Assembly (NCBI GenBank): GCA_030603745.1
Contig: JAUVXE010000013.1
Location: 1 to 55,278 of the forward strand
Direction: 5' to 3'
Source of the DNA: Coriobacteriia bacterium
Lineage (GTDB): Bacteria; Actinomycetota; Coriobacteriia; Anaerosomatales; SLCP01
DNA: 55,278 bases
Part shown: positions 4,594 to 27,012 of the stretch, one piece after another
Numbering within the stretch: position 1 is the first letter of the stretch
How the letters are laid out: each line of letters opens with the position of its first letter
The notes under the pieces: generated by a model
Databases searched by the model: none
What the model saw: only the letters and a program-made list of their open reading frames with translations
Told to the model about the DNA's origin: nothing
Position numbers and translations under genes: made by a program

Positions 4594-5223
4594 ATGCAAG
4601 GAGCAGTTTGGAAGTCTCAGGCAGTGTTCGGCGTCTCGGATGCGCGCGCGCTTGCCCTTGCGAAGCTGGTCATCTACGTGGGCATGGCCGTGGTCCTGTT
4701 GTTCACACCGTTCGTCGGCGAGCTGGCCGAGAGTGCTGCCTGGGAGGTCACGGGGTACGGGCTCGCCGGGAGACTACGGGCCTTACTCGGTACGCCGGGT
4801 GATTGCCGCTTGCTGGCACTGCTGACGGGAACCCTGGCCAGCATCGGGGCGGGTGCCTCGCTGACATTGCATGTTCATGAAGGTGCACTGCATACCTCGT
4901 GTGCACCGATCCCTCGGAGACGCCGTTTCGCTCAGTTCCCGCCTCCGCGTGGGGCGATTCACGACGCTGAGACTACACAGGCTTGTCAATGGTCGCACTG
5001 CGACGGTGTCGCAGCGAAGACCCCCCGGTACAGGAGAACCTGGAGACCGGGGGGTCTTCTGTTGACCGGACGAAGCCCGCCGTCTCGCACCGATGTGCAA
5101 GACCACCCCCGTAGCGACGTCTCCGACAACGTTCTGCGAGGTACGGGCAGTATCCGGGCCACGCACTCACACTATCACCAAGCGAGTGCGTGCGTCCCGA
5201 TTAGGCAAGCAGGGAGGGGTTAA
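4594..5223 (+). pseudogene. Possible remnant of a small membrane-protein gene
   Basis: From an ATG at 4594 (GGGGG upstream) the frame gives a plausible start with hydrophobic runs ('KLVIYVGMAVVLLFTPFVG', 'LLALLTGTLASIGAGASL') for roughly 90 residues. It then runs through the strong hairpin at 5016-5059 with unlikely, Arg-rich sequence before stopping at 5223. I read the first 300 bases as possible coding remnant and the rest as accidental open frame. No family is recognised. Confidence 0.22.
5016..5059. terminator. Strong hairpin upstream of the multicopper oxidase
   Basis: GAAGACCCCCCGGT (5016-5029) and ACCGGGGGGTCTTC (5046-5059) are exact inverted repeats of 14 bp. A nested CAGG-AGAA-CCTG lies inside, so the whole element folds into one long stem-loop. 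TTCTGTTG follows on the plus strand. It probably insulates the oxidase operon from upstream transcription. Confidence 0.6.
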
Positions 5224-5224
5224 G

Positions 5225-8200
5225 GTGCAGTTACGAGGATCCAGACGCGCGCTAGCGGCGCTGTTGGCTCTTGTCTTGTTCGCGAGTACGGCGGTGGCCA
5301 CCGCCGCCCCGTCTGGCAAGGTCAAAGCCAGCAGCAGCCAGCAACAGCGCTACGAAGAGATGATGGAGAAGGCGAAGGCGCGACAGGAGCGGGTCGTGAC
5401 GCAGGAGGAGCGTGAGGCCGCCTCCGCCAACATGAACAAGCAGCTGGCAGCCCTCGGGCTTCCGGCGGATGCGACCCCCGAACAGTACTTCGCGGCGATG
5501 GAGATGCCCATGCCTGGTCCGGGAGACACCCCGGACTACTCCGGCATGACGCCGAACTGGGCGTACACGCCCAAGTTGCGCAAGTTCGTTGACGGGTTGC
5601 CGGGACTTGGCCCCGACAACGCCAACAACCTCGGCCAGTTCATGTCGGTCGCCAAACCGGACCGGGTGACCTATCCGGGGTCCGACTACTATGAGATCTC
5701 GGTGCGCGAGTACGTTGAGCAGATGCACTCTGACATGCCGCCGACAACGCTTCGTGGCTACGTCCAGACGAACATCGGTACCGATCAGTTCGGCACGTTC
5801 AACCAGGTCCCCGACCCCATCCACTACCTGGGGCCGACCATCATCGCCACGAAGGATCGCCCCGTTCGTATCAAGTTCACCAACGAACTGCCCACGGGCG
5901 AGGGTGGCGACCTGTTCATCCCGGTCGATACGACCGTGATGGGCGCCGGTATGGGTCCGCTTGAGATGGACGTGCCCGCCGGACAGCCGATGAACTACAC
6001 TGAGAACAGGGCGACCATTCATCTGCACGGCGGCCGCAACCCGTGGATCAGTGACGGGACGGCCCATCAGTGGGTCACCCCGGCCGGCGAGAATACGCCG
6101 TACCCACGCGGCGTGAGCGCGGTCAACGTGCCCGATATGCCCGATCCGGGCGAGGGTGCCATGACGTTCTACTACACGAACGCACAGAGCGCCCGGCTGA
6201 TGTTCTTTCACGACCACTCGTTCGGGATCACGCGCCTGAACGTCTATGCGGGAGAGGCAGCGGGATATCTGCTCCAGGATGACACCGAGAAGGCGCTTAT
6301 CGCCGACGGCACGATCCCCGAGGAGCAGATTCCGCTCGTCATACAGGACAAGACGTTTGTGGACGCCGACACCATCGGGACGACGGACCCCACATGGAAC
6401 TGGGGTACCGGCATGATGATGGACGGCAAGCGCATGCCCAACACGGGCGACCTGTGGATTCCGCATGTCTACATGCCGGCGCAGAACCCCTACGACATCA
6501 CCGGCTATAACGCGATGGGGCGCTGGCACTATGGCCCATGGTTCTGGCCGCCTACACTCGATATCACGTACGGACCGATACCCAACCCTTACTACATCAG
6601 CCCCGAGGAGACGCCCGGTCAGCCTCCGATGATCCCCGGAGTACCGCACCCTTCGATGGGGATGGAGGCGTTCTTCGACACCCCGCTCGTCAACGGGACG
6701 GCCTATCCGGTACTCGAGGTCGATCCCAAGTCGTATCGCTTCCGGGTCCTGAACGCGGCCAACGATCGCTTCTGGAACCTGCAACTCTACGAGGCGGATC
6801 CGGACGCCGTAAGCGCTGACGGCCGGACGGGCACCGAGGTCAGGATGGTTCCGGCGGCTTCCGGACTGCCAGCGGGCTGGCAGCCTGACGGGCGCGACGG
6901 CGGTCTTCCCGACCCGTCACTCGTCGGTCCGGACATGGTTCAGATCGGCACCGAGGGTGGTTTCCTGCCCTCGCCGGTCGTACTCGAGTCCAAGCCGATC
7001 TCTTGGAACACGAACGTGACGACCTTCAACGCGGGGAACGTCGAAGCAGGCACTCTCATGCTTGGTCCGGCCGAGCGGGCAGACGTCATCGTCGACTTCT
7101 CTCAGTGGGCCGGTAAGACGCTCATCCTCTACAACGATGCACCGGCTCCGTGGCCGGCGGGTGACCCGCGCTACGACTACTACACCGGCAATCCCGACCT
7201 CACCGAGGAGGGCGGCGCGGAATCCACCGAGATCGGATTCGGCCCCAATACCCGTACCATCATGCAGATCAAGGTGGCCGATGCGCCTGCGGCCCCCGCG
7301 TTCGACAAGGTCGCGCTCGACGATGCCTTCACCACGACCACAGAGAAGGACGGCGTCTTCAAGTCGTCGCAGCATGACGTCATCGTCAGCCAGGCCCCTT
7401 ACGGGCCGGCGTACGGGACCACCTTCTCCTCGACATGGCCGTACTGGGGCATCGCGAGGATCTTCGATAGCGACATGACCTTCAAGACCGTCGACGGCGA
7501 CATCGTGAACCTCCCCTTCGAAGCCAAGGCCATCCAGGACGAGATGGGTGAGACGTTCGATCGCGAGTACGGACGCATGGCAGGCAAGTTGGGTCTGCAG
7601 CTGCCCGTGCCGGGCGGAGTACAGAACTTCATCGGATACGATTTCTCCGCTCCGCCGACCGAGCTCGTACAGTCCTCGGCCGAGAGCAGCAAGATCGGTG
7701 AACTCGGTGACGGCACGCAGATCTGGAAGATCACCCAGAACGGCGTCGACACCCATCCGATGCACTTCCATCTGTTCGAGGTCCAGCTGCTCAACCGCGT
7801 GGCATGGGACGGCAGGATCATGCTGCCCGAGCCTAACGAGCTCGGCTGGAAGGACACACTGAAGGTCAATCCGCTCGAGGACACGATTGTGGCGCTCCGT
7901 CCGATCGTGCCGCAGGTGCCCTTCGACCTTCCCAACAGCGTTCGTCCGCTCGATCCCACGATGCCGCTTGGAGCCGAGCTGTGGCCCAACACCGGCATCC
8001 AGGATCCGGCAGGCAACCCGGTGATCCCGGTCATCAACAGCCTCGTGAACTTCGGTTGGGAGTACATGTGGCACTGCCACATCCTCAGCCACGAGGAGAT
8101 GGAGATGATGCGTCCGATCGCCGTGGGCGTGGCACCGAGGACCCCCACCGATCTCGCGGTGAACACCATGGGTGGCGCTGCCAACCTCTCGTGGGCGGAC

Positions 8201-9055
8201 AACTCCCTCAACGAGACCGGTTTCGTCGTCCAGAGGGCTGGCGATGCCGGCTTCACCACCGAGCTCGTGACCTTCAAGGTGGCCGAGGACGCGACGTCCT
8301 ACTCGGACGACACGATCGTTCCGGGTCAGACGTACTACTACCGTGTCTTCGCTACCAACGTGGTCGGCGACACGACCCAGTACCCGGAACCGGCGATCGG
8401 CTTCCCGACCATGACCGTCAACTCCGAGTTCTCGAATTCGGTCAGCGCGATGATTCCTGCGGTCACTCCCGTGGCCGCGCCCACGAATCTGACCGCGACG
8501 CTCGCGGTCGGTCCGCAGGTCAACCTTGCGTGGACGGACAACGCCACCAATGAGACCGGATTCGTGATCGAGCGCAGCGTCAACGGCGGAGCCTTCGCGC
8601 AGCTCGCCACCCGAGGGCCTCGCGGTGGCACGGGCAACACCACGTTCTCCGACGTGACCGTGGCCGTCGGCAACACCTACGACTATCGCGTCAGGGCGGT
8701 AGGGGCAGGCGGTGCCGTGTCAGCGTGGTCCAATACGGCGTCCGTGGCGATCCTCGCTCCGGCGGCGCCGTCGAACCTGACGGGCACCGCATTCAGACAG
8801 GGTAACGGCCCCAACGACAGGGTCACTCTGAACTGGACGGACAACTCCAACAACGAGAGTGGTTTCCAGATCCAGCGCGCGACCAACGCGGCATTCACCG
8901 CCAACGTGGTCAACGCGAACGTGGGAGCCAACGTCACTACCTACACAACGCCCAATGTTCCGAGGAACACCACCTTCTACTTCCGGGTGCGCGCCACGAA
9001 CACGACCACAGGCCCATCAGCCTGGTCCAACACCTTCGAGGTGTTGACCCCGTAG
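5225..9055 (+). CDS. Large secreted multicopper oxidase with three fibronectin-III repeats
   Basis: 1276 residues from a GTG with GGGAGGGG just upstream. It begins with a signal peptide (RR, a hydrophobic run, ATAAPSG). All four copper-ligand motifs are present: H266-L-H268, H329-D-H331, H844-P-M-H847-F-H849, and H950-C951-H952...H956...M961, so type 1 and trinuclear sites should be complete. About 510 residues separate motifs II and III, far more than in laccases of ~500 residues. From about residue 975 there are three fibronectin-III repeats (each with a W-[AT]-D-N-[SA] strand and an 'NETGF' or 'NESGF' segment). The architecture recalls OmpB of Geobacter and MofA-type proteins linked to metal oxidation or reduction. 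Substrate is unknown; metal ions are an inference. The next gene encodes a di-heme cytochrome that could exchange electrons with it. Confidence 0.92.
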   Translation: MQLRGSRRALAALLALVLFASTAVATAAPSGKVKASSSQQQRYEEMMEKAKARQERVVTQEEREAASANMNKQLAALGLPADATPEQYFAAMEMPMPGPGDTPDYSGMTPNWAYTPKLRKFVDGLPGLGPDNANNLGQFMSVAKPDRVTYPGSDYYEISVREYVEQMHSDMPPTTLRGYVQTNIGTDQFGTFNQVPDPIHYLGPTIIATKDRPVRIKFTNELPTGEGGDLFIPVDTTVMGAGMGPLEMDVPAGQPMNYTENRATIHLHGGRNPWISDGTAHQWVTPAGENTPYPRGVSAVNVPDMPDPGEGAMTFYYTNAQSARLMFFHDHSFGITRLNVYAGEAAGYLLQDDTEKALIADGTIPEEQIPLVIQDKTFVDADTIGTTDPTWNWGTGMMMDGKRMPNTGDLWIPHVYMPAQNPYDITGYNAMGRWHYGPWFWPPTLDITYGPIPNPYYISPEETPGQPPMIPGVPHPSMGMEAFFDTPLVNGTAYPVLEVDPKSYRFRVLNAANDRFWNLQLYEADPDAVSADGRTGTEVRMVPAASGLPAGWQPDGRDGGLPDPSLVGPDMVQIGTEGGFLPSPVVLESKPISWNTNVTTFNAGNVEAGTLMLGPAERADVIVDFSQWAGKTLILYNDAPAPWPAGDPRYDYYTGNPDLTEEGGAESTEIGFGPNTRTIMQIKVADAPAAPAFDKVALDDAFTTTTEKDGVFKSSQHDVIVSQAPYGPAYGTTFSSTWPYWGIARIFDSDMTFKTVDGDIVNLPFEAKAIQDEMGETFDREYGRMAGKLGLQLPVPGGVQNFIGYDFSAPPTELVQSSAESSKIGELGDGTQIWKITQNGVDTHPMHFHLFEVQLLNRVAWDGRIMLPEPNELGWKDTLKVNPLEDTIVALRPIVPQVPFDLPNSVRPLDPTMPLGAELWPNTGIQDPAGNPVIPVINSLVNFGWEYMWHCHILSHEEMEMMRPIAVGVAPRTPTDLAVNTMGGAANLSWADNSLNETGFVVQRAGDAGFTTELVTFKVAEDATSYSDDTIVPGQTYYYRVFATNVVGDTTQYPEPAIGFPTMTVNSEFSNSVSAMIPAVTPVAAPTNLTATLAVGPQVNLAWTDNATNETGFVIERSVNGGAFAQLATRGPRGGTGNTTFSDVTVAVGNTYDYRVRAVGAGGAVSAWSNTASVAILAPAAPSNLTGTAFRQGNGPNDRVTLNWTDNSNNESGFQIQRATNAAFTANVVNANVGANVTTYTTPNVPRNTTFYFRVRATNTTTGPSAWSNTFEVLTP

Positions 9056-9066
9056 ATGCCGGGAAG

Positions 9067-9103
9067 GGTCCGGTGGCGCCGGCTGTGCCGGCGCCACCGG
9101 ACC
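9067..9103. terminator. Long 17-bp hairpin between oxidase and di-heme cytochrome genes
   Basis: GGTCCGGTGGCGCCGGC (9067-9083) and its exact complement (9087-9103) flank a TGT loop. It lies about 10 nt after the oxidase stop. No T-tract follows, so it may stabilise or process the mRNA, or partly attenuate the downstream gene, rather than terminate fully. Confidence 0.6.
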
Positions 9104-9174
9104 GACCCGCGATGACTGCAGATACGCCGCGGGAGTTCGGCCCCTGACTCCCGCACAATGAAGGGGGGTAACCC

Positions 9175-10383
9175 ATGCGCTTCAGAGCGGCTTGGTTCTG
9201 CCTCTGCGTCTTGGCGTTCTGCGCGCCGCCGACGCATGCACTGGCCGAACCCACCGCGGAATCGGTGGGCAAGGCGATCTTCTTCGATACGAACCTCTCG
9301 ACTCCACCGGGTCAGTCCTGTGCATCGTGTCACGATCCAGCGGCGGGATTCGCCGACCCGGAGCATGAAGCCGTATCTCCGGGGGCGCTTGCGGGACGAT
9401 TCGGGAACCGCAACGCTCCGATGGCTGCATACGCCAAGTTCATCCCAGAGTTCGGATACGACGCGATACTGATGGCGTACACGGGCGGACAGTTCTGGGA
9501 CGGCCGAGCTGCGACGCTGGAAGAGCAGGCCAAGGGCCCGTTCCTGAACCCGCTCGAGATGAACATGCCGAACAAGAAGGCCGTTGTGAGTCGCATCGCC
9601 GACTCGGCGTATGCCGAGGACTTCCTCGCCGTGTTCGGGCCGAAGAGCCTCAGCACGAAGGACGCCGATGCCGCATACGACCGGGTGGCCTCCGCGATCG
9701 CCGCCTACGAGCGGTCTGCCGAGGTGAGCCCGTTCAGCTCCAAGCACGACTATGCGATGACGCGTACCGGCAGCGCCCGCATGATGACGTTCACCATGCA
9801 GGAACGTCAGGGCATGATGCTGTTCAACGGCAAAGCCCGATGCTGGGTCTGCCACGAGACGCCGATGGGCGGCATGGGTGACGGCATGATGGGCGGCGGA
9901 GGCTCCGGCGGCGGTATGGGTGGCGGCGGCATGGGCATGGTGCCAGACCAGATCATCCTGTTCAGCGACTACCGCTACGCCAACCTCGGCATCCCGGCCA
10001 ACCCCGACAACCCCTACTACACCCTGCCGAAGAAGCTCAACCCCGAAGGGGGCCAGTGGATCGATCATGGGCTCGCCGCCGTGATGCCGGGTGGCGTTGC
10101 GGCCAACCCCGAACTCGATGGCCTGTTCAAGACCCCGAGTCTTCGCAACGTGGCACTGACCGCACCATACGGACACAACGGGTACTTCGAGACCCTCAAA
10201 GAGATCGTTCACTTCTACAACACGAGGGACGTGCCTGGGGCCGGGTGGCCCGCTCCGGAGGTGTCGGCCAACATCGACACCGCGGAGATGGGGAACCTCG
10301 GGCTCAGCGATGCCGAGGAGAACGCGATCGTCGCCTTCTTGATGACCCTGAGCGACGGGTGGTGGATCCCGCCCGCTCCGTAA
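9175..10383 (+). CDS. Exported di-heme cytochrome c, CcpA/MauG peroxidase family
   Basis: 402 residues; ATG preceded by AAGGGGGG. It begins with a signal peptide to about residue 25. Two haem-attachment sites are visible: C49-A-S-C52-H53 and C223-W-V-C226-H227, the spacing of bacterial di-heme cytochrome c peroxidases and MauG. 'FWDGRAATLEEQAKGPFLNP' and 'LRNVALTAPYGHNG' are conserved family segments. Directly after the second haem is a Met/Gly-rich insertion (about residues 231-255) that is unusual for the family. It lies about 120 nt downstream of the multicopper oxidase on the same strand, so the two probably act on the same substrate or electron path outside the membrane. Peroxidase activity is not proven by sequence. 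Confidence 0.9.
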   Translation: MRFRAAWFCLCVLAFCAPPTHALAEPTAESVGKAIFFDTNLSTPPGQSCASCHDPAAGFADPEHEAVSPGALAGRFGNRNAPMAAYAKFIPEFGYDAILMAYTGGQFWDGRAATLEEQAKGPFLNPLEMNMPNKKAVVSRIADSAYAEDFLAVFGPKSLSTKDADAAYDRVASAIAAYERSAEVSPFSSKHDYAMTRTGSARMMTFTMQERQGMMLFNGKARCWVCHETPMGGMGDGMMGGGGSGGGMGGGGMGMVPDQIILFSDYRYANLGIPANPDNPYYTLPKKLNPEGGQWIDHGLAAVMPGGVAANPELDGLFKTPSLRNVALTAPYGHNGYFETLKEIVHFYNTRDVPGAGWPAPEVSANIDTAEMGNLGLSDAEENAIVAFLMTLSDGWWIPPAP

Positions 10384-10508
10384 GCGTCTCGGTACCTCGC
10401 AGGGGATGCGTCGCGGCCCGCGGGTGCGGCAACCGTGCGCGCTGCGGAGCTGTCACGCGCGGGTCCCGCGCCGTCGCGGCACCCACCGCGCTCATCTCCG
10501 CTGCCCGG

Positions 10509-10832
10509 CTACCCCGCCTTCTTCACGCCCCCGCAGCCGCACCCACCCGCGCAGTCGGGGCAGGGCAGCTCGCATCCGCACTCGTGCGCAAGGTCAGCGC
10601 CGCCGAGGAGCTCCACCGCGGTCTCCTCGGCGATCCCGAGGGGGACGGTGACGAGGCGCGCTCCGTCGATCTCGACCTCGGCGAACCGGGGCTGGCGCTC
10701 GGGGTAGCGCGCGAGCACTCGGGCGATCGCGCCCTGGGCGATGCCGGCGGCGAGGTACTTGGTGTAGACGGGCTCGGTGCCGGTCGTGCGGACGAGACAC
10801 GGGGTGGCGATCGGTGCGTCGGCGAGCGACAT
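10509..10832 (-). CDS. Small FeoA-like protein with Cys-rich tail
   Basis: 107 residues from an ATG with GAGGAG upstream. Residues 1-75 follow an FeoA-like SH3 pattern: 'LADAPIATPCLVR', a 'YLAAGIAQGAIARVLARYP' segment, then 'EVEIDGARLVTVPLGIAEE'. The tail contains seven Cys in 'HECGCELPCPDCAGGCGCGG', a likely metal or Fe-S site. FeoA domains regulate ferrous-iron transport or DtxR-type regulators, but no FeoB is in this window. A palindrome overlapping a likely promoter lies about 40 nt upstream. The FeoA assignment is from pattern only and should be treated as tentative. Confidence 0.6.
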   Translation of the reverse strand: MSLADAPIATPCLVRTTGTEPVYTKYLAAGIAQGAIARVLARYPERQPRFAEVEIDGARLVTVPLGIAEETAVELLGGADLAHECGCELPCPDCAGGCGCGGVKKAG

Positions 10833-10869
10833 GGCGCCTCCTCGGGGCAGGTGTGCGTGCGGTCGGAGC

Positions 10870-10902
10870 GTTAGCATATACTAACCACACCACAGAGCGC
10901 AA
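10870..10902 (-). promoter_or_regulatory. Promoter with overlapping palindromic operator
   Basis: On the minus strand TTGCGC (10897-10902) and TATATG (10875-10880) are 16 nt apart. The -10 sits inside GTTAGCATATACTAAC (10870-10885), whose 5-bp arms GTTAG/CTAAC are perfect. A repressor bound here would block transcription of the FeoA-like gene. The half-sites resemble those of DtxR/IdeR-family iron regulators, though with a wider spacer. Confidence 0.5.
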
Positions 10903-10957
10903 GCGAACCCCGCGACGCGGAACACCACGGCGGCAGGGAGCGGTCGCAGGCAGCCGC

Positions 10958-12046
10958 CTACGGTAGCGTCGCCCAGGGGTGGCAGTTCATGCAGAGCCCG
11001 TCGGCCCCCCGCACGAGCATGCGGCGGTTCTGCGTCTCGTGCGGGAAGTTCTGGAAGAGCGGGTTGTCCGTCCCGGCGTCCCCGTCGGTCCGGCCGTCGC
11101 CGTAGCGGTAGACCCGCGCCGGGGCCACGTCGCCGAGCTCGCCGATCAACCGGCTGTCCTCGTGGCACTGCTGGCAGATGGGCGCATGGCCCGCCTGCTC
11201 CGGCGTGCGCGGATACGGCATCACGTAGCCGCGATTGTGCCAGGTCATGCTCGGCAGGGTGCCGATGAGCCCGAGGGAGCCGTATGTTGTCTCGAGCGAC
11301 GTCTCAGACGTCAGGATCGCCACGTTGTCGTAGTGGAACGGCTCGGCGTGGGTGTCGAGCGAATCGACCGGGTGGTTGACCGTGTCGCCGCCCGAGTGCC
11401 GGCCCTGGTGGCAGGCGATGCACCAGTCCGAGCCGTAGACGTCGACGGTCCGGTCGCCGCCGGTGGGCTGCGTGCGCAGCAGCTTGCTCGACGACCACTC
11501 GGGAAGCCAGTTCAGGTCGCTCGCGTGGAACCGGATCCGCTCGCCGCTGAACGGCTCGACCACGTTCGCGCCGTGCGGGTTGTGGCAGTCGTTGCAGCTC
11601 AGGGAGTCGTCGACGCCCCCGAACTCCTGCACCCGGTCGCCCCCGGTCGCGCTGTCCCCGCCGGGGATCACGTTCGTGGTGTCGATGCGGTGGCCGCCGC
11701 CGACCTCCATGCCGCGTGCGGCGATCGCGCCGTAGACGCCCCATCCGCCCGTGCCGTCGTGGCAGACCATGCAGTTGTCGCGCACGGTGGCGCGACGGAG
11801 CAGCCGGACCCCCTCGGCGGGCGCGTCGTGGACCTTGTGGCAGATCATGCACTTGCTGCTCGTGGCCGAGAAGCCTTGATGCGGGCCGGAGCGCGTCTCG
11901 AACGGGAAGTCGTCGGAGTGGCATGACGGACAGTCGGCCCAGTCGCCCTCCCAGGTGATGTCTCCCTCGGCCCACCCGAACGCGAACGCCGGGAACACGA
12001 GAAGGGCGGCCACGATGGCCACGACGACGAGCGGCGCACGTCCCAT
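10958..12046 (-). CDS. Exported seven-heme c-type cytochrome
   Basis: 362 residues with an N-terminal signal peptide (hydrophobic residues 5-24, FAFGWA). Seven CxxCH motifs are visible: CPSCH (39-43), CMICH (66-70), CMVCH (92-96), CNDCH, CIACH, CQQCH and CMNCH, with many extra His that could be distal ligands. The protein should carry electrons outside the membrane, for example to a terminal reductase, a metal or a partner cytochrome. GGGGGGA precedes the ATG by a few nt. No C-terminal anchor is seen. The ArsC gene lies just upstream on the same strand (37-nt gap), but an arsenic role for the cytochrome is not shown by the sequence. Confidence 0.93.
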   Translation of the reverse strand: MGRAPLVVVAIVAALLVFPAFAFGWAEGDITWEGDWADCPSCHSDDFPFETRSGPHQGFSATSSKCMICHKVHDAPAEGVRLLRRATVRDNCMVCHDGTGGWGVYGAIAARGMEVGGGHRIDTTNVIPGGDSATGGDRVQEFGGVDDSLSCNDCHNPHGANVVEPFSGERIRFHASDLNWLPEWSSSKLLRTQPTGGDRTVDVYGSDWCIACHQGRHSGGDTVNHPVDSLDTHAEPFHYDNVAILTSETSLETTYGSLGLIGTLPSMTWHNRGYVMPYPRTPEQAGHAPICQQCHEDSRLIGELGDVAPARVYRYGDGRTDGDAGTDNPLFQNFPHETQNRRMLVRGADGLCMNCHPWATLP

Positions 12047-13560: not shown

Positions 13561-14412
13561 TCACACGCCGAGGAACCCCCGCCCGTCCCCGTCGTCCTCG
13601 CTCGCTGCCGGCAGCTCGAACAAGAAGGCCGATCCTTCGCCGACCACGCTGCGCGCCCACATGCGTCCTCCGAGCCGTTCGACCATGCCGCGCGCCATAG
13701 CCAGGCCGAGGCCGAGGCCGGACGGCTTCGCGAGCCCGCCCACGTCTATCTGCGTGAACGCGTCGAAAGCCCGCTCGAGTTCGGGTTCGGACACGCCGGA
13801 CCCCGTGTCGCTCACGCTGAACCGGACGCGATCGCCACGCACGGTCGCGGCCACGACGATCTCCCCCGCGTCCGAGAAGCGCACCGCGTTCGAGATCAGC
13901 CGGATGAGCACCTGACGCAGCCGTTCACGGTCCGTGCGCACCCACACCGTCGCGGGGCTCGGCGCGCTACGCAGGCACAGACCCTTCTCGCGCGCCGACC
14001 GCTCCATCAGCTCGCACGCCGCCCTGATCGCGGCATCGGCGTCGACATCGGTCACCCGCATCTCGAGCGCGCCTGCTTCGAGCCGGGTGAAGTCGATGAC
14101 GTCCTCGATGAGCCGGGCGAGGTGCTTGCCGGCGCTGTTGACCGTCTCGAGATGCGACCGCTGTTCGCCGGAGAGCTCCCCGCTCATGCCGAGGAGGAGG
14201 ATCCCGGAGTAGCCGATGATGTGGTTGAGGGGGGTGAGCAGCTCGTGGCTCACGGCCGCGGCGAACGCGCTTCTGCCCTCGCGGGCCACCTCGAGCTCCT
14301 CCTCGAGCGAGGCGATCCGGGCGTGTGCCGCCGCGAGCTCTTGGCGCAGTCGCGTCACCTCGTCGGCGGACTCGTCCCCTGGAGCGGACTGTCCGGTGGC
14401 CTCGGCAGTCAT
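13561..14412 (-). CDS. Soluble histidine kinase
   Basis: 283 residues with no membrane segment. A coiled coil (about 15-45) precedes the dimerisation/H-box 'AVSHELLTPLNHIIGYS', then the ATPase boxes 'RLISNAVRFS' (N), 'VSDTGSGV' (G1) and 'GLGLGLAMARGMVERLGG' (G2). The ATG overlaps the stop of the upstream GGDEF gene as ATGA, so translation is coupled. No response regulator is adjacent. As the third gene of the operon it probably receives a signal from the cobalamin-binding protein, or from the PAS protein, and phosphorylates an unlinked regulator (inference). Confidence 0.9.
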   Translation of the reverse strand: MTAEATGQSAPGDESADEVTRLRQELAAAHARIASLEEELEVAREGRSAFAAAVSHELLTPLNHIIGYSGILLLGMSGELSGEQRSHLETVNSAGKHLARLIEDVIDFTRLEAGALEMRVTDVDADAAIRAACELMERSAREKGLCLRSAPSPATVWVRTDRERLRQVLIRLISNAVRFSDAGEIVVAATVRGDRVRFSVSDTGSGVSEPELERAFDAFTQIDVGGLAKPSGLGLGLAMARGMVERLGGRMWARSVVGEGSAFLFELPAASEDDGDGRGFLGV

Positions 14413-15806
14413 CGCGAGTCGCTCTTCCGCGCGCGCTTGACGGCGTACATCGCCTCGTCCGCGGCCTCGGCCAGCTCCTCGAGCCGACACTCGCCGGGGG
14501 TGTCGCATCGCGCGCTCCCCACACTGACGGCGAGCGGTCGCTCCTCGCCGCCGGGACCCGGTATCGGCGGAGTGTCCGCCAGAGCCTGCTGGAGCCGGCT
14601 CACGAGCATGTCGATGCCGCCGGGACCCGTCTCCACGACGAGCGCGGCGAACTCGTCCCCGCCGAGGCGGCCGATGACGTCCGCCGCCCGGGTCGAGCGG
14701 CGCAGGGCGTCCGCCGTGAGCCGGATCGCCTCGTCGCCGGCCGCGTGGCCGAAGTCGTCGTTGAGCGCTTTGAGGCCGTCGACGTCGGCGAAGAGCATGC
14801 CGGTCGGGTTCCCGGCGCGCGCCGCCTGCTCGACGGTCTGGCGCGCGAACAGGTCGAAGCCGCGACGGTTGTACAGCCCGGTCAGCTCATCGACGAGCGC
14901 GAGCTGCTCGAGCCGCTGCTGGGCGTTGCGCCGGTCGGTCACGTCCTCGGTCGCGCCGAGGATCTGTGAGACCCGGCCGTCGCCGAGGCGCTGGAACACC
15001 GTGTAGCGGGTGGAGAGCCACCTCCATGCCCCGAGGGAGTCGAGCGCGCGGTACTCCCACTCACGGACCTGCCCGTCCTCGAGCGAGACCGCGATGTCGA
15101 GGTGACCGCTGAACTCCTCGGCCGCCGAGGGGTGCAGCAGGTCGACGATGCCATCGGGGCCGAGGTCGGACCGGTCCTCCTCGGCGAATCCGAGCAGTGA
15201 CGCGAGCGGCCGGTTCGCGTAGACGGTCCGGCGCCGCTCGAGGTCGTAGATGTGGATCACGCTGGGCGTCGTGTCCAGGATGCTCTGGATCAGGCGTCTG
15301 CCCCGTTCGAGGTCGGCGTTTCGGCGGGCGAGCTCTCGCTGCACGTTCACGAGCTCGTTGTTCAGACGCGTGAAGTCGGCGTAGGGCCCCTGGGAGGGCG
15401 TCCGCGCGTCTGCGATCTCGTCCTTGCGAAGTGTCCGCACCATGTTCACCAGCTCGTTGTTCATCGCGAGGAACTCCTCGACCATCGCGAGGAGATCCGT
15501 TCGCGTGCCGGCGACCAGAACCAGGAAGCCGTCGGCGGAGCGGGCGCCCGAGAAGTGGAGCGCCTCGATGGCGTCGGTGAGGGCCACGTTGATCTCGTCG
15601 TTGAACGCGGTGCCGCGCTCGATCAGCCCCGTGAAGAACGCGTCGAACTTCCCGCAGCTCTCCACGTCGACGATCTCGGCGAGTCGCACTCCCGTTCGCA
15701 CGGGGTGCCGGGTCGGCAGACCGGCCTCGATGACCTCGGTGACCACGCCGTCCGCATCGCAGACGACGGCGAGACCCGACCCTGGGTACAGGTGCGGGGT
15801 TCTCAT
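14409..15806 (-). CDS. PAS-GGDEF diguanylate cyclase
   Basis: 465 residues, cytosolic. An N-terminal PAS-like region (1-110) is followed by a coiled coil ('NNELVNVQRELARRNADLERG'-type heptads), a second PAS domain near residues 170-290 with the PAC motif, and a C-terminal GGDEF domain containing 'LVDELTGLYNRRGF', 'FADVDGLKALND' and an intact GGDEF. No RxxD inhibitory site is clear and there is no EAL domain, so it should synthesise cyclic di-GMP. Start and stop overlap both neighbours by 4 nt (ATGA), making a tightly coupled operon with the cobalamin sensor upstream and the kinase downstream. Confidence 0.92.
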   Translation of the reverse strand: MRTPHLYPGSGLAVVCDADGVVTEVIEAGLPTRHPVRTGVRLAEIVDVESCGKFDAFFTGLIERGTAFNDEINVALTDAIEALHFSGARSADGFLVLVAGTRTDLLAMVEEFLAMNNELVNMVRTLRKDEIADARTPSQGPYADFTRLNNELVNVQRELARRNADLERGRRLIQSILDTTPSVIHIYDLERRRTVYANRPLASLLGFAEEDRSDLGPDGIVDLLHPSAAEEFSGHLDIAVSLEDGQVREWEYRALDSLGAWRWLSTRYTVFQRLGDGRVSQILGATEDVTDRRNAQQRLEQLALVDELTGLYNRRGFDLFARQTVEQAARAGNPTGMLFADVDGLKALNDDFGHAAGDEAIRLTADALRRSTRAADVIGRLGGDEFAALVVETGPGGIDMLVSRLQQALADTPPIPGPGGEERPLAVSVGSARCDTPGECRLEELAEAADEAMYAVKRARKSDSR

Positions 15807-16882
15807 CGGCGGGCACCGGAGACGAGTTCGGACGCCGTACGGATCGCTGAGGGGGCGTCAGGCGCGTACCCGTCCGCACCGACCCGCTCCCACAGTCCGG
15901 GCGACAGGTTGAACGGGTATCCGCCCACGATCACCGGGACGTCACGGGTCCGCTCGTCGGCCCTGAGCGCGTCGATCACGTTCGCGACCTCGGGAACGTG
16001 ATAGGCCATGGTGGCGGAGAGGCCGAGGACGTCGGCGTGCCGCCCGGCGACCGCGTCGACGATCGAGGCGACCGGGGTGTTGGCGCCGATGAAGTGCGTG
16101 CCCCACTCCTCCATCTCGAAGAAGTCGGCGACCATCCGCAGGCCCATCTCGTGCAGCTCGTGACCGACGCATGCCGCGACGAGCGTCCGGCCGTTCGTGC
16201 CCGAGCCGAAGATGTAGGGGTAGAGCCTGGCCATGACGAGCTGCGTGACGCCGGTGACGAAGTGCTCCTGCGCCACGGTGATCTTCCCGGTCTGCCAGAG
16301 CCGTCCGAGCTCAAGCTGTACCGGCTCGAAGACGTGCAGGTAGATGTCGCGGACCGGGACTCCGCGTTCCACGGCGTCGAGTATCGTCCGTGACGCCTCG
16401 TGGCGGTCGCCGCCCAGAGCCGCGCCGAGGTAGCGCATCGCGAGTGCCGCGTGCGGGCGTTCGGGTGCGATCTGCGAGGTGATTCCGGTCGATCGATACG
16501 GCAGCGTCTCGAGCGCGCGCTCGACGACCCGCGTGGCCGCGGCCGCGTGCGCGGGATCGATCGCGGCCCCCACCGCACTGGCGACGTCGGCGAGACTCCC
16601 GGTCAGCCACTCCTCCGGCAGGCCGAGGTTCTCGAAGAGGACGCGCACCCAGAGCACGTAGTCGTCGAACAGGACCTGATCGCCCGCCCACAGCGCCGTC
16701 GCGAGGAAGTCGACGTGATACCGGGTGTCTTGGCGGGCGTGCGCGAGCTGCGACTCGGAGAAGGTCTCCCGGAGTCCGGGCCACCGGCTCCACTGGCGCT
16801 CCAGCGCTTCGGAGACGATGTCGTCGGCGGCGACCCGTATGGCGTGAGCGGCATCGATACCTGGTGCGGGCAGGAGGACCAC
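15803..16882 (-). CDS. Cobalamin-binding sensor protein (AerR/CarH-type B12 domain, no HTH)
   Basis: 359 residues. An unassigned helical N-terminal region of about 140 residues is followed by a B12-binding cap and Rossmann domain. Two diagnostic motifs are present: W-x9-EH ('LWQTGKITVAQEH'), the lid of light-sensing CarH, LitR and AerR proteins, and E-x-H-x-x-G ('ELHEMG'), whose His is the lower cobalt ligand. 'VLGLSATMAYHV' and 'VIVGGYPF' continue the Rossmann fold. No DNA-binding domain is present, so output must pass through partners; the coupled genes make a diguanylate cyclase and a histidine kinase. Light sensing via adenosylcobalamin is an inference; a corrinoid methyltransferase subunit is the alternative. 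Confidence 0.85.
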   Translation of the reverse strand: MVLLPAPGIDAAHAIRVAADDIVSEALERQWSRWPGLRETFSESQLAHARQDTRYHVDFLATALWAGDQVLFDDYVLWVRVLFENLGLPEEWLTGSLADVASAVGAAIDPAHAAAATRVVERALETLPYRSTGITSQIAPERPHAALAMRYLGAALGGDRHEASRTILDAVERGVPVRDIYLHVFEPVQLELGRLWQTGKITVAQEHFVTGVTQLVMARLYPYIFGSGTNGRTLVAACVGHELHEMGLRMVADFFEMEEWGTHFIGANTPVASIVDAVAGRHADVLGLSATMAYHVPEVANVIDALRADERTRDVPVIVGGYPFNLSPGLWERVGADGYAPDAPSAIRTASELVSGARR

Positions 16883-17081: not shown

Positions 17082-17258
17082 TCACATGCCATGGCAGAAC
17101 GCGCAGACCTTGGCCATGCCGCTGGCGCCGCCCGACATCATGTAGCCGTTGTGGATACCGGCAGCACCCTTGCCGTTCGGCGCGAAGGCGAACGCGGGCG
17201 CCGCAGCTGCGGCGACAAGCGCGAACGCGGCCAACGCGACCAACAGTCGCTTCTTCAT
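17082..17258 (-). CDS. 58-residue exported monoheme c-type cytochrome
   Basis: A short gene: ATG with AAGGAGG 7 nt upstream. The protein is a Lys-Arg signal peptide (MKKR, then a long Leu/Ala run ending PAFAFA at residues 21-26) and about 32 mature residues. The mature part is Gly/Met-rich (NGYMMSGGASGMA) and ends in C52-A-F-C55-H56-G-M58. The haem-binding motif sits at the very C-terminus, leaving only three residues after the second Cys. Gly/Met richness recalls the insertion in the di-heme peroxidase at 9175. Function unknown; it could be a mini electron carrier or a haem-binding tether. A palindromic promoter region is upstream. Confidence 0.75.
   Translation of the reverse strand: MKKRLLVALAAFALVAAAAAPAFAFAPNGKGAAGIHNGYMMSGGASGMAKVCAFCHGM

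Positions 17259-24359: not shown

Positions 24360-24363
<4 letters not shown>
23677..24363 (+). CDS. ABC exporter ATPase (LolD/MacB type) 2
   Basis: 228 residues with Walker A 'GPSGSGKST', 'LSGGQQQR' and 'VMGDEPTGDLD'. It shares long identical blocks with the ATPase at 20527. Its TAG stop overlaps that of the opposing ATPase at 24360 by four bases (CTAG), so two exporter operons meet tail to tail. GGAGAGGAG lies upstream of the ATG. Confidence 0.92.
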
Positions 24364-25074
<711 letters not shown>

Positions 25075-25082
<8 letters not shown>

Positions 25083-26214
25083 TCTGGATCACCTCGATCG
25101 GGTCGAGGCGCGAGGTCGAGCGCGTGGGGATGATGCTCGAGCCGAGCGCCACGCCGATGCCCACCGCCGCCGAGAGCGCGATGAAGCCGGGCTCGGGCCG
25201 GATCGCGAAGTCGAGCGGCACGAACGAGAACGACCAGATCAGCGCGAACCCGAGCGCGAGGCCGCCGAGGGTGCCGCCGCTGCCGAGCAGCAGCGCCTGC
25301 CAGAGGAAGATGCGTCCCGCACGCGCGTCGGAGAGCCCCATCGCCTTCAAGATCCCGATCTGGCGCGTCTTCTGCACGGCGCTGATGGCGAGCGTGGACG
25401 CGATGCCGAGCGCGACCGCGACCAGCACGAACGCCTGGATCATGTAGGAGGAGGCCGACTGGCTCTGCAACGCGGTGAGCAGGTCGGCGTTCGCGGCCTG
25501 CCACTCCGTGACCGTCACGCTGCGGATCGCCGTGCGCCACTCCGCGGCCACCTCCGCCGAGGAGAACGGGTCGCGCATCTGGATCTCGATCGCCGAGAAC
25601 TCATCGGCGCGCCAACCGGTCAGCGAACGCGGGAGCCCGGCGCTCACGAACGCCTGGCGCTCGTTCGCCGCGGCCGCGCCGAGGTCGACGACCGCGGTGA
25701 GGGTCGGCCGCGCGGTGCGGTTCCCCGCGAAGGTGAGCGGCACCGCGTCTCCCGGGACGAGCCCGTACTTCTCGGCGAAGTCCACGCCGAGCACGATGTC
25801 GCCGTCGCCGAGGCGCGGAGTTCCCGCCACGGTGCGTCCGGACAGGTCGTAGATCGCGTCGAGCCCCCCGAGCTCGCCGCCTTTGAGGGAGAGGGGCGCG
25901 CTGTCCTCGCCGTCGCTGTAGAGCGCCGAGGCGTCACGCACGGCGGCGACCGCTCCGGGCTCGACGCGCGGCTCGGCGGCGATGAGCTCGCGGATCGCCT
26001 CGGTGAATGTGACGGGGTCGCCCTCCTCGGCGGCCGAGATCGTGACCTGGGGCGCCGAGCCGATCGTCTGGTCGACGAGTCCGGCCTGCAGGCTCACGAT
26101 GAGCGACCCCACGAACACCTGCGTGGCGATCCCCACCGCGATCCCCGCCATGATGAGCGCCGACTGCGCGGGACTGGAGCGCAGGAAGCGGGCGGCGATG
26201 CGCAGCGAGAGCAT
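25075..26214 (-). CDS. ABC transporter permease (LolC/FtsX type) of the cobalamin-sensor operon
   Basis: 379 residues from an ATG one nt after the stop of the cobalamin-sensor gene. N-terminal helix 'SALIMAGIAVGIATQVFVGSLIVSL', a large extracytoplasmic domain, then three helices with 'SAVQKTRQIGILKAMGLSDARAGRIFLWQ', the LolC/FtsX motif. Substrate unknown. In a Gram-positive-type cell the homologues export lipoproteins, peptides or toxic lipids. Confidence 0.85.
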
Positions 26215-26215
26215 C

Positions 26216-26941
26216 TCAGCCGTCCTTGCGGGGCGGGGAGGGGGCCGCCTCGGCGGGTGCGGCGGGAGTCGCGCCGGGAAGCCCGAGCGCGGCCGGGTCG
26301 AGCGTGAGGTCGGCCAGCTCGCCGGCGTCGCGCGCGAACGCGGGGCCACCGGCGACGACGCGGGTGCCCGAGGGCAGGCCCGCGCGGAGCCGCTCGACCG
26401 TCTCGCGGAGGCGCACCCGGTGGTAGTGGGTCGATGCGGAGAGGACCACGAGGACGGCCCCGAGGCGCTCGGCGGCGTCGCAGATCTCGGTCACCGGGGT
26501 GTCCGCGCCGAGGAAGTGCGCGTCGTAGCCCGCGAGCAGGAAGCGGTCGAGCATCATCCGCAGGCCGAGGTCGTGGAACTCCTCGGGCGGGCAGGCGAGC
26601 AGCGCGGTCTCGCCCCGGCGCGGGAGTGCGGCGGCGGCCTCGATCACGAGGGGAGCGAGCGACTCGACGGCCGTGCGGACCGTGGCGGTCGCGTAGTGCT
26701 CCTCCCACACCCGGGTCGCACCCCGCTGCCACGCCGCGCCGGTGTCGGCCATGAGCGGGCCGAGCACGAGCGTGTAGAGGTCGGGGACGGTGATCGCGCC
26801 GCTTCCGGCGACCCGCAGCACGAGCTCGATGGCCGTCTTCCGGTCGCGGGCGGCGAGTGCTTCGTCGAGGTCGGCCCGCACCTGTGCGACCAGGGATTCG
26901 GCGGGCTGCTGTCCTGTGGCGGGACGGGGTGTGTTCTCCAT
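26216..26941 (-). CDS. Cobalamin-binding sensor protein 2 (AerR/CarH-type B12 domain, no HTH)
   Basis: 241 residues from an ATG at 26941. A helical lid with W-x9-EH ('WQRGATRVWEEH') and the cobalt-ligand motif E-x-H-x-x-G ('EFHDLG') followed by 'LGADTPVTEICDAAERLGAVLVVLSAS' defines a B12-binding module without a DNA-binding domain. It is shorter than the sensor at 15803, lacking most of the N-terminal extension. Its gene is one nt from an ABC permease gene, so it probably regulates the transporter or its expression in response to corrinoid or light (inference). Confidence 0.83.
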   Translation of the reverse strand: MENTPRPATGQQPAESLVAQVRADLDEALAARDRKTAIELVLRVAGSGAITVPDLYTLVLGPLMADTGAAWQRGATRVWEEHYATATVRTAVESLAPLVIEAAAALPRRGETALLACPPEEFHDLGLRMMLDRFLLAGYDAHFLGADTPVTEICDAAERLGAVLVVLSASTHYHRVRLRETVERLRAGLPSGTRVVAGGPAFARDAGELADLTLDPAALGLPGATPAAPAEAAPSPPRKDG

Positions 26942-26964
26942 GCAACAGATGCTACCCCAAGGTG

Positions 26965-26993
26965 TGGACAAGCGTGCGGACGCACGGTAGAAT
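26965..26993 (+). promoter_or_regulatory. Promoter of tRNA-Asp (left copy)
   Basis: TGGACA (26965-26970) and TAGAAT (26988-26993) are 17 nt apart, 20 nt before the tRNA-Asp gene. The right-hand tRNA-Asp copy has no comparable sequence upstream. Confidence 0.65.
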
Positions 26994-27012
26994 CGCGTTC
27001 GCTGTCCCACAT

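Follow-up and report, generated by a model that had tools for sequence, protein, structure and literature searches.

Three overlapping genes in a 55,278-nucleotide stretch of DNA from a Coriobacteriia bacterium (the window; its genome is G000) encode a sensor (S), an output protein (D), and a histidine kinase (K). In the reading that we favour with moderate confidence, S is a free-standing photocobilin with the globin first and with dedicated output genes, signalling in trans to D, and K is coupled to this signalling. The reading builds on observed domains, motif conservation, and operon structure, on the recurrent adjacency of S and the N-terminal partner domain of D (Dn), and on the exchange of outputs. 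Because relatives in other phyla keep S and the partner domain and swap the output enzyme, the pair looks, from sequence comparison, like an exchangeable light-signalling module.

All three open reading frames lie on the minus strand in the order S, D, K, and both joints, S/D and D/K, read ATGA, in agreement with the overlaps given in the preliminary description of this DNA (Table 1). The K gene starts with the ATG at 14412, which overlaps the stop codon of D; a mechanically listed 315-aa reading frame begins too far upstream. The true start of S may lie a few codons downstream of the annotated GTG at 16882, because this codon abuts a GGAG sequence. A promoter scan found nothing. Just upstream of the trio, a small peptide (17082-17258, minus strand) begins like a signal sequence and bears one CxxCH heme motif, at its C-terminus. 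Multicopper oxidase-like, di-heme peroxidase-like, and multiheme cytochrome-like genes (named by eye) also lie near the trio, at 5093-12046.

Table 1. Coordinates in the window of the three genes and of the domains that they encode.
Feature	Position	Strand	Description
S, sensor, 359 aa	15803..16882	minus	Globin (photoglobin), four-helix bundle, and Rossmann B12 domain; AlphaFold pLDDT 94
S, N-terminal phycobilisome-type globin, aa 9-126	16505..16858	minus	Pfam PF00502, 27.3 bits
S, B12-binding_2 helical cap and B12-binding Rossmann domain, aa 150-347	15842..16435	minus	W196, E206-H207, E242-x-H244
D, output protein, 465 aa	14409..15806	minus	PAS-like partner domain, helical linker, PAS, GGDEF
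Dn, partner domain of D, aa 1-130	15417..15806	minus	PAS-like fold without Pfam family; invariant C16 and G20
D, long-helix linker, aa 141-168	15303..15386	minus	Motif NNELVNxQREL, common to partners of most homologous sensors
D, second PAS (PAS_3/PAS_4), aa 172-293	14928..15293	minus	Pfam
D, GGDEF diguanylate cyclase domain	14421..14912	minus	Intact A-site GGDEF; I-site RAAD
K, soluble histidine kinase, 283 aa	13561..14412	minus	N-terminal coiled-coil-like stretch, HisKA, HATPase_c

Judged by its sequence, S is a photocobilin-type protein in globin-first order and a probable B12/bilin light sensor. Pfam recognises B12-binding_2, B12-binding, and, at residues 9-126, Phycobilisome, the last scoring above its curated cut-off of 22.2 bits. 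The motifs W-x9-EH (W196, E206, H207) and E-x-H-x-x-G (E242, H244, G247), pointed out in the preliminary description, are both present; W196, E206, and H244 are kept in 21 of 21 homologues and H207 in 20. That description had placed S among CarH/AerR-type B12 sensors and had seen no DNA-binding domain in it. The B12 domain and its motifs stand, and Pfam finds no MerR-type or any other DNA-binding domain, but the globin domain had been missed; because of this N-terminal domain, S is filed here as a photocobilin and the CarH/AerR filing is set aside. The globin part could be aligned in 19 homologues, all of which retain W78 and 17 of which retain D52. These residues are equated with D270 and W296 of SasPcob because, in the printed alignments, chain position plus 6 gives the published SasPcob numbering, an offset that W61, E71, H72, and H108 all fit. 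AbPcob aligns a His with D52, as is also reported in its paper (PMC10979010). The cysteine of the CxRD/CxQD motif discussed for bilin globins (PMC10151467) is Ala in S and is present in some of its relatives.

Structural comparison points in the same direction. The AlphaFold model of S is confident (pLDDT 94, pTM 0.90), with an all-helical N-terminal part, and the best solved relatives by sequence are the photocobilins SasPcob and AbPcob. In the VIA-align listing, photocobilins (Z of 26-27) outscore the remaining B12 proteins as matches to the B12 half, and Foldseek returns photocobilins among its top rows, a Chloracidobacterium B12 domain standing just ahead of them; because the domain order is swapped, these searches barely test the globin half. 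In phmmer searches, the isolated globin domain weakly matches the bilin domain of AbPcob (E 2e-4) and phycocyanin (E 3e-4). We infer that S binds AdoCbl and bilin and responds to light. The cobalamin fold is shared with corrinoid proteins of methyltransferase systems, the alternative that the preliminary description had itself raised, and weak MtbC/MtgC matches are found. Such an identity is very improbable, since S reaches 52 bits against cut-offs of 350-370 for the MtaC/MtbC/MtgC families, carries the W-x9-EH pocket and a globin domain, and has no identified methyltransferase gene among the neighbours examined, in the window and at homologous loci.

Elsewhere in the window (24360-27010, minus strand), a second B12-sensor-like protein of 264 aa has W-x9-EH and E-x-H-x-x-G and no other Pfam domain. 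Its gene precedes those of a MacB/LolE-like permease and an ABC ATPase (named by eye), an operon-linked ABC transporter. Permease homologues follow this sensor in 13 of 13 loci of the same order (L019-L031), and the ATPase is seen in 12.

The architecture of D agrees with the PAS-PAS-GGDEF composition originally proposed, the first PAS being a PAS-like domain without a Pfam family. Its GGDEF active site is intact (PF00990, 121 bits), and the product-inhibition site RxxD reads RAADVIGRLGGDEF at residue 373. Residues 1-130, which constitute Dn, have no match in Pfam or NCBIfam, and a sequence search of solved proteins found no relative. The structure model (pLDDT 83) is PAS-like, followed by long helices, and both C16 (codon 15759-15761, minus strand) and G20 are invariant in 12 of 12 aligned copies. 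C16 is also present in Azospirillum. K, a soluble kinase as given in the preliminary description, carries H, N, G1, and G2 boxes; Pfam detects only HisKA and HATPase-type domains and no recognised sensor domain.

Within the class, 13 of the 298 genomes searched encode a sensor of this type (E <= 1e-40). Such sensors also occur in further Actinomycetota and on Azospirillum and Skermanella plasmids (37-47% identity); a match in Ilyobacter covers the B12 part. The globin and the B12 part are separate adjacent genes in the halophile Halanaerobacter (115 and 230 aa) and in a methanogen, a Methanobacteriaceae MAG (141 and 225 aa). A search of the order Halanaerobiales yielded only the copy already known. 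In the MAG (L010, 2559-8245), the neighbours of the split photocobilin are genes for STAS, small HATPase (RsbT-like), and SpoIIE proteins, which together resemble a stressosome set.

Adjacency of S and Dn is seen in Actinomycetota, Azospirillum, a Halanaerobacter, and a methanogen, in all cases on the same strand and within ~1.2 kb, and in most with anything from a 4-nt overlap to a 47-nt spacing. The output joined to Dn varies: beside S, Dn is carried on PAS-GGDEF proteins (G000, G082, G112, G021, and G024), on HisKA-type kinases (G050, G614, G479, and Azospirillum, the last two assigned by reading the sequence), on a HisKA_3 kinase whose gene adjoins that of a NarL-type regulator (G608; the latter named by eye), on a HisKA_2 kinase (the methanogen), and, in divergent form, on a GGDEF-EAL protein (G202). 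The Halanaerobacter Dn stands next to a SpoIIE phosphatase, and in G342 globin-B12 is fused directly to GGDEF. On the sensor tree, outputs change at least four times. Because Dn is fused to the catalytic part of a kinase in G050, G614, and G479 and to PAS-GGDEF elsewhere, both outputs plausibly serve one sensor.

The synteny of the three genes is partial: the S-D pair recurs in the five genomes with PAS-GGDEF, whereas the K gene accompanies it only in G000 and G082. This restriction to two genomes would suit a reading in which the co-transcribed genes are independent, S controlling something else and D and K being unremarkable proteins of c-di-GMP and phosphorelay signalling that are neighbours by chance, as would the 14 GGDEF domains in the window's genome and the sensors that stand alone between ligA-like and gatC-like genes (named by eye) in G036, G030, and G109. 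We nevertheless consider independence improbable, given that S-Dn adjacency recurs with different outputs in distant phyla, that G342 has the direct fusion, and that a profile search of 694 genomes (298 + 396) found no Dn away from S. This search detected Dn in nine genomes, each time beside S; eight of the nine built the profile, so G479, where the sensor C-terminus lies at a contig edge just upstream of the Dn gene, is the only independent hit, and the threshold misses divergent copies such as that of G202, so further copies may exist elsewhere. A plasmid search with Dn alone gave no match, and its sensitivity is limited, because the Azospirillum sensors do adjoin a Dn-like region at profile level. 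Some sensors may work in another way, because a Dn gene is missing from the position beside S in six sensor-bearing genomes of the order (G076, G037, G029, G036, G030, and G109) and the one in G202 is divergent. The Ilyobacter sensor-GGDEF pair has no detectable Dn.

In the working that we propose for the trio, S would form a CarH-like dimer that binds adenosylcobalamin and whose globin pocket may or may not hold a bilin. Light would break the Co-C bond and shift the helical bundle of S, which would signal in trans to D via Dn and the helical linker, altering the dimer geometry and thereby c-di-GMP synthesis. K, which lacks a recognised sensor domain, would be driven by the same S-D complex and would phosphorylate an unlinked response regulator. 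Analogy with published photocobilin work (PMC10979010) makes Dn and the linker the probable route from S to D; S-D contact, the sign of the effect on D, and the coupling of K are what we infer.

A photolyase is present in G000 and in 8 further sensor-bearing genomes of 18 searched, so light is probably relevant to these organisms. Alternatively, S could report AdoCbl status or redox rather than light, with ligand loading setting D and K and with the globin being structural or holding a ligand other than biliverdin. PF01126 heme oxygenase is absent from G000 and 19 other sensor-bearing genomes (20 searched), and no HutW-type anaerobic heme enzyme exceeded the cut-off in 18, which would accord with this alternative. 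So would the presence of a methanogen and other probable anaerobes among the relatives, and the difference in cyclase activity that AbDPcob already displays between its apo and AdoCbl-bound dark states (PMC10979010). Against it, nearly all homologues retain the Trp and Glu-His that light-responsive CarH-type domains have in the adenosyl pocket, the bilin-pocket residues D52 and W78 are kept too, and the photolyases suggest light exposure in half of the bearers searched; we therefore regard a light-independent role as rather unlikely. Possession of a heme oxygenase is a supporting condition only, which the published definition of photocobilins does not include, and AbDPcob needs no bilin for its response to green light (PMC10979010). 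Other heme-opening enzymes or uptake may supply a bilin. Why the bilin-pocket residues should be conserved in organisms that yielded no heme oxygenase is a puzzle.

The arrangement of S and D resembles that of AerR/PpaA and PpsR/CrtJ, in which the gene of a B12-type sensor lies directly upstream of that of a PAS-linker-PAS regulator. Of six plasmid records from Rhodobacterales, three show a 4-nt overlap between the B12 sensor and ppsR genes (ppsR records were retrieved with a probe sequence, and later comparisons used the retrieved records only). The SCHIC domain of AppA, which is of the B12 type, docks on the Q-linker helix of PpsR between two PAS domains (PMC9144470), and this structure and the gene order together offer a structural analogy for S-D. 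AerR/PpsR and AppA-PpsR have a DNA-binding output and no globin, and the trio differs in both respects. The comparisons of Dn with the PpsR N domain are suggestive of kinship that cannot be separated from generic PAS likeness: Foldseek ranks PpsR first (E 1e-4), whereas the top 50 of VIA-align are other PAS domains, mostly PAS-B, without PpsR; the profile comparison, with matches of Prob 33-61, speaks for PpsR; and in single-sequence tests control PAS proteins score about as well (p = 0.095). A broader idea, which we advance tentatively and hold to be possible but doubtful, is that photocobilin and Dn form a general two-protein light module of bacteria and archaea, in which Dn is related to the N domain-Q linker of PpsR/CrtJ and which operates in anaerobes by means of a bilin that has a source other than heme oxygenase. 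If so, a single ancestral docking partner would be common to B12 photosensors and would have had DNA-binding, cyclase, kinase, or phosphatase outputs grafted onto it.

Zhang et al. (2024; PMC10979010) characterised two photocobilins, SasPcob (8J2W/8J2X) and AbDPcob/AbPcob (8J2Y), both of which combine, like S, a globin-type bilin domain with a CarH-type B12 domain. S has the conserved Trp/Glu-His in common with them, and its D52 and W78 fall at bilin-contact positions. In AbDPcob, a B12/bilin sensor and a diguanylate cyclase are joined in one protein, light activates the cyclase >10-fold, and isolated photocobilin proteins act in trans on this cyclase (PMC10979010); the trio likewise has a cyclase. 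The sensor architecture and the photocobilin-cyclase link are therefore already known. The preliminary description did not recognise the output arrangement as one already described, but the output has this precedent. CarH (5C8D) has the B12 photosensor domain and motifs in common with S but carries a DNA-binding domain where S has a globin. The photoglobin family, as cited in two later papers (Schneider et al., 2022, via PMC10151467 and PMC10979010), consists, like the globin of S, of non-heme globins that resemble phycobiliproteins and are linked with B12 domains and signalling proteins. In contrast to the characterised photocobilins, S has its globin at the N-terminus, although groups with the B12 domain at either end were already noted (PMC10979010), and no heme oxygenase (PF01126) was found for its bearers. 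A further difference is that, in the trio, genes other than that of the sensor encode the output, and a PAS-like partner domain and a kinase are present; a separate-gene operon with a conserved partner domain and swapped outputs was not found in the literature searched, which did not take in the Schneider 2022 survey. The swapped outputs (cyclase, phosphodiesterase, three kinase types, and phosphatase) constitute a natural set useful for optogenetics. Moreover, the work on SasPcob and AbDPcob left the targets of stand-alone photocobilins unclear (PMC10979010), and the operon family offers a genetically linked candidate receiver domain for them.
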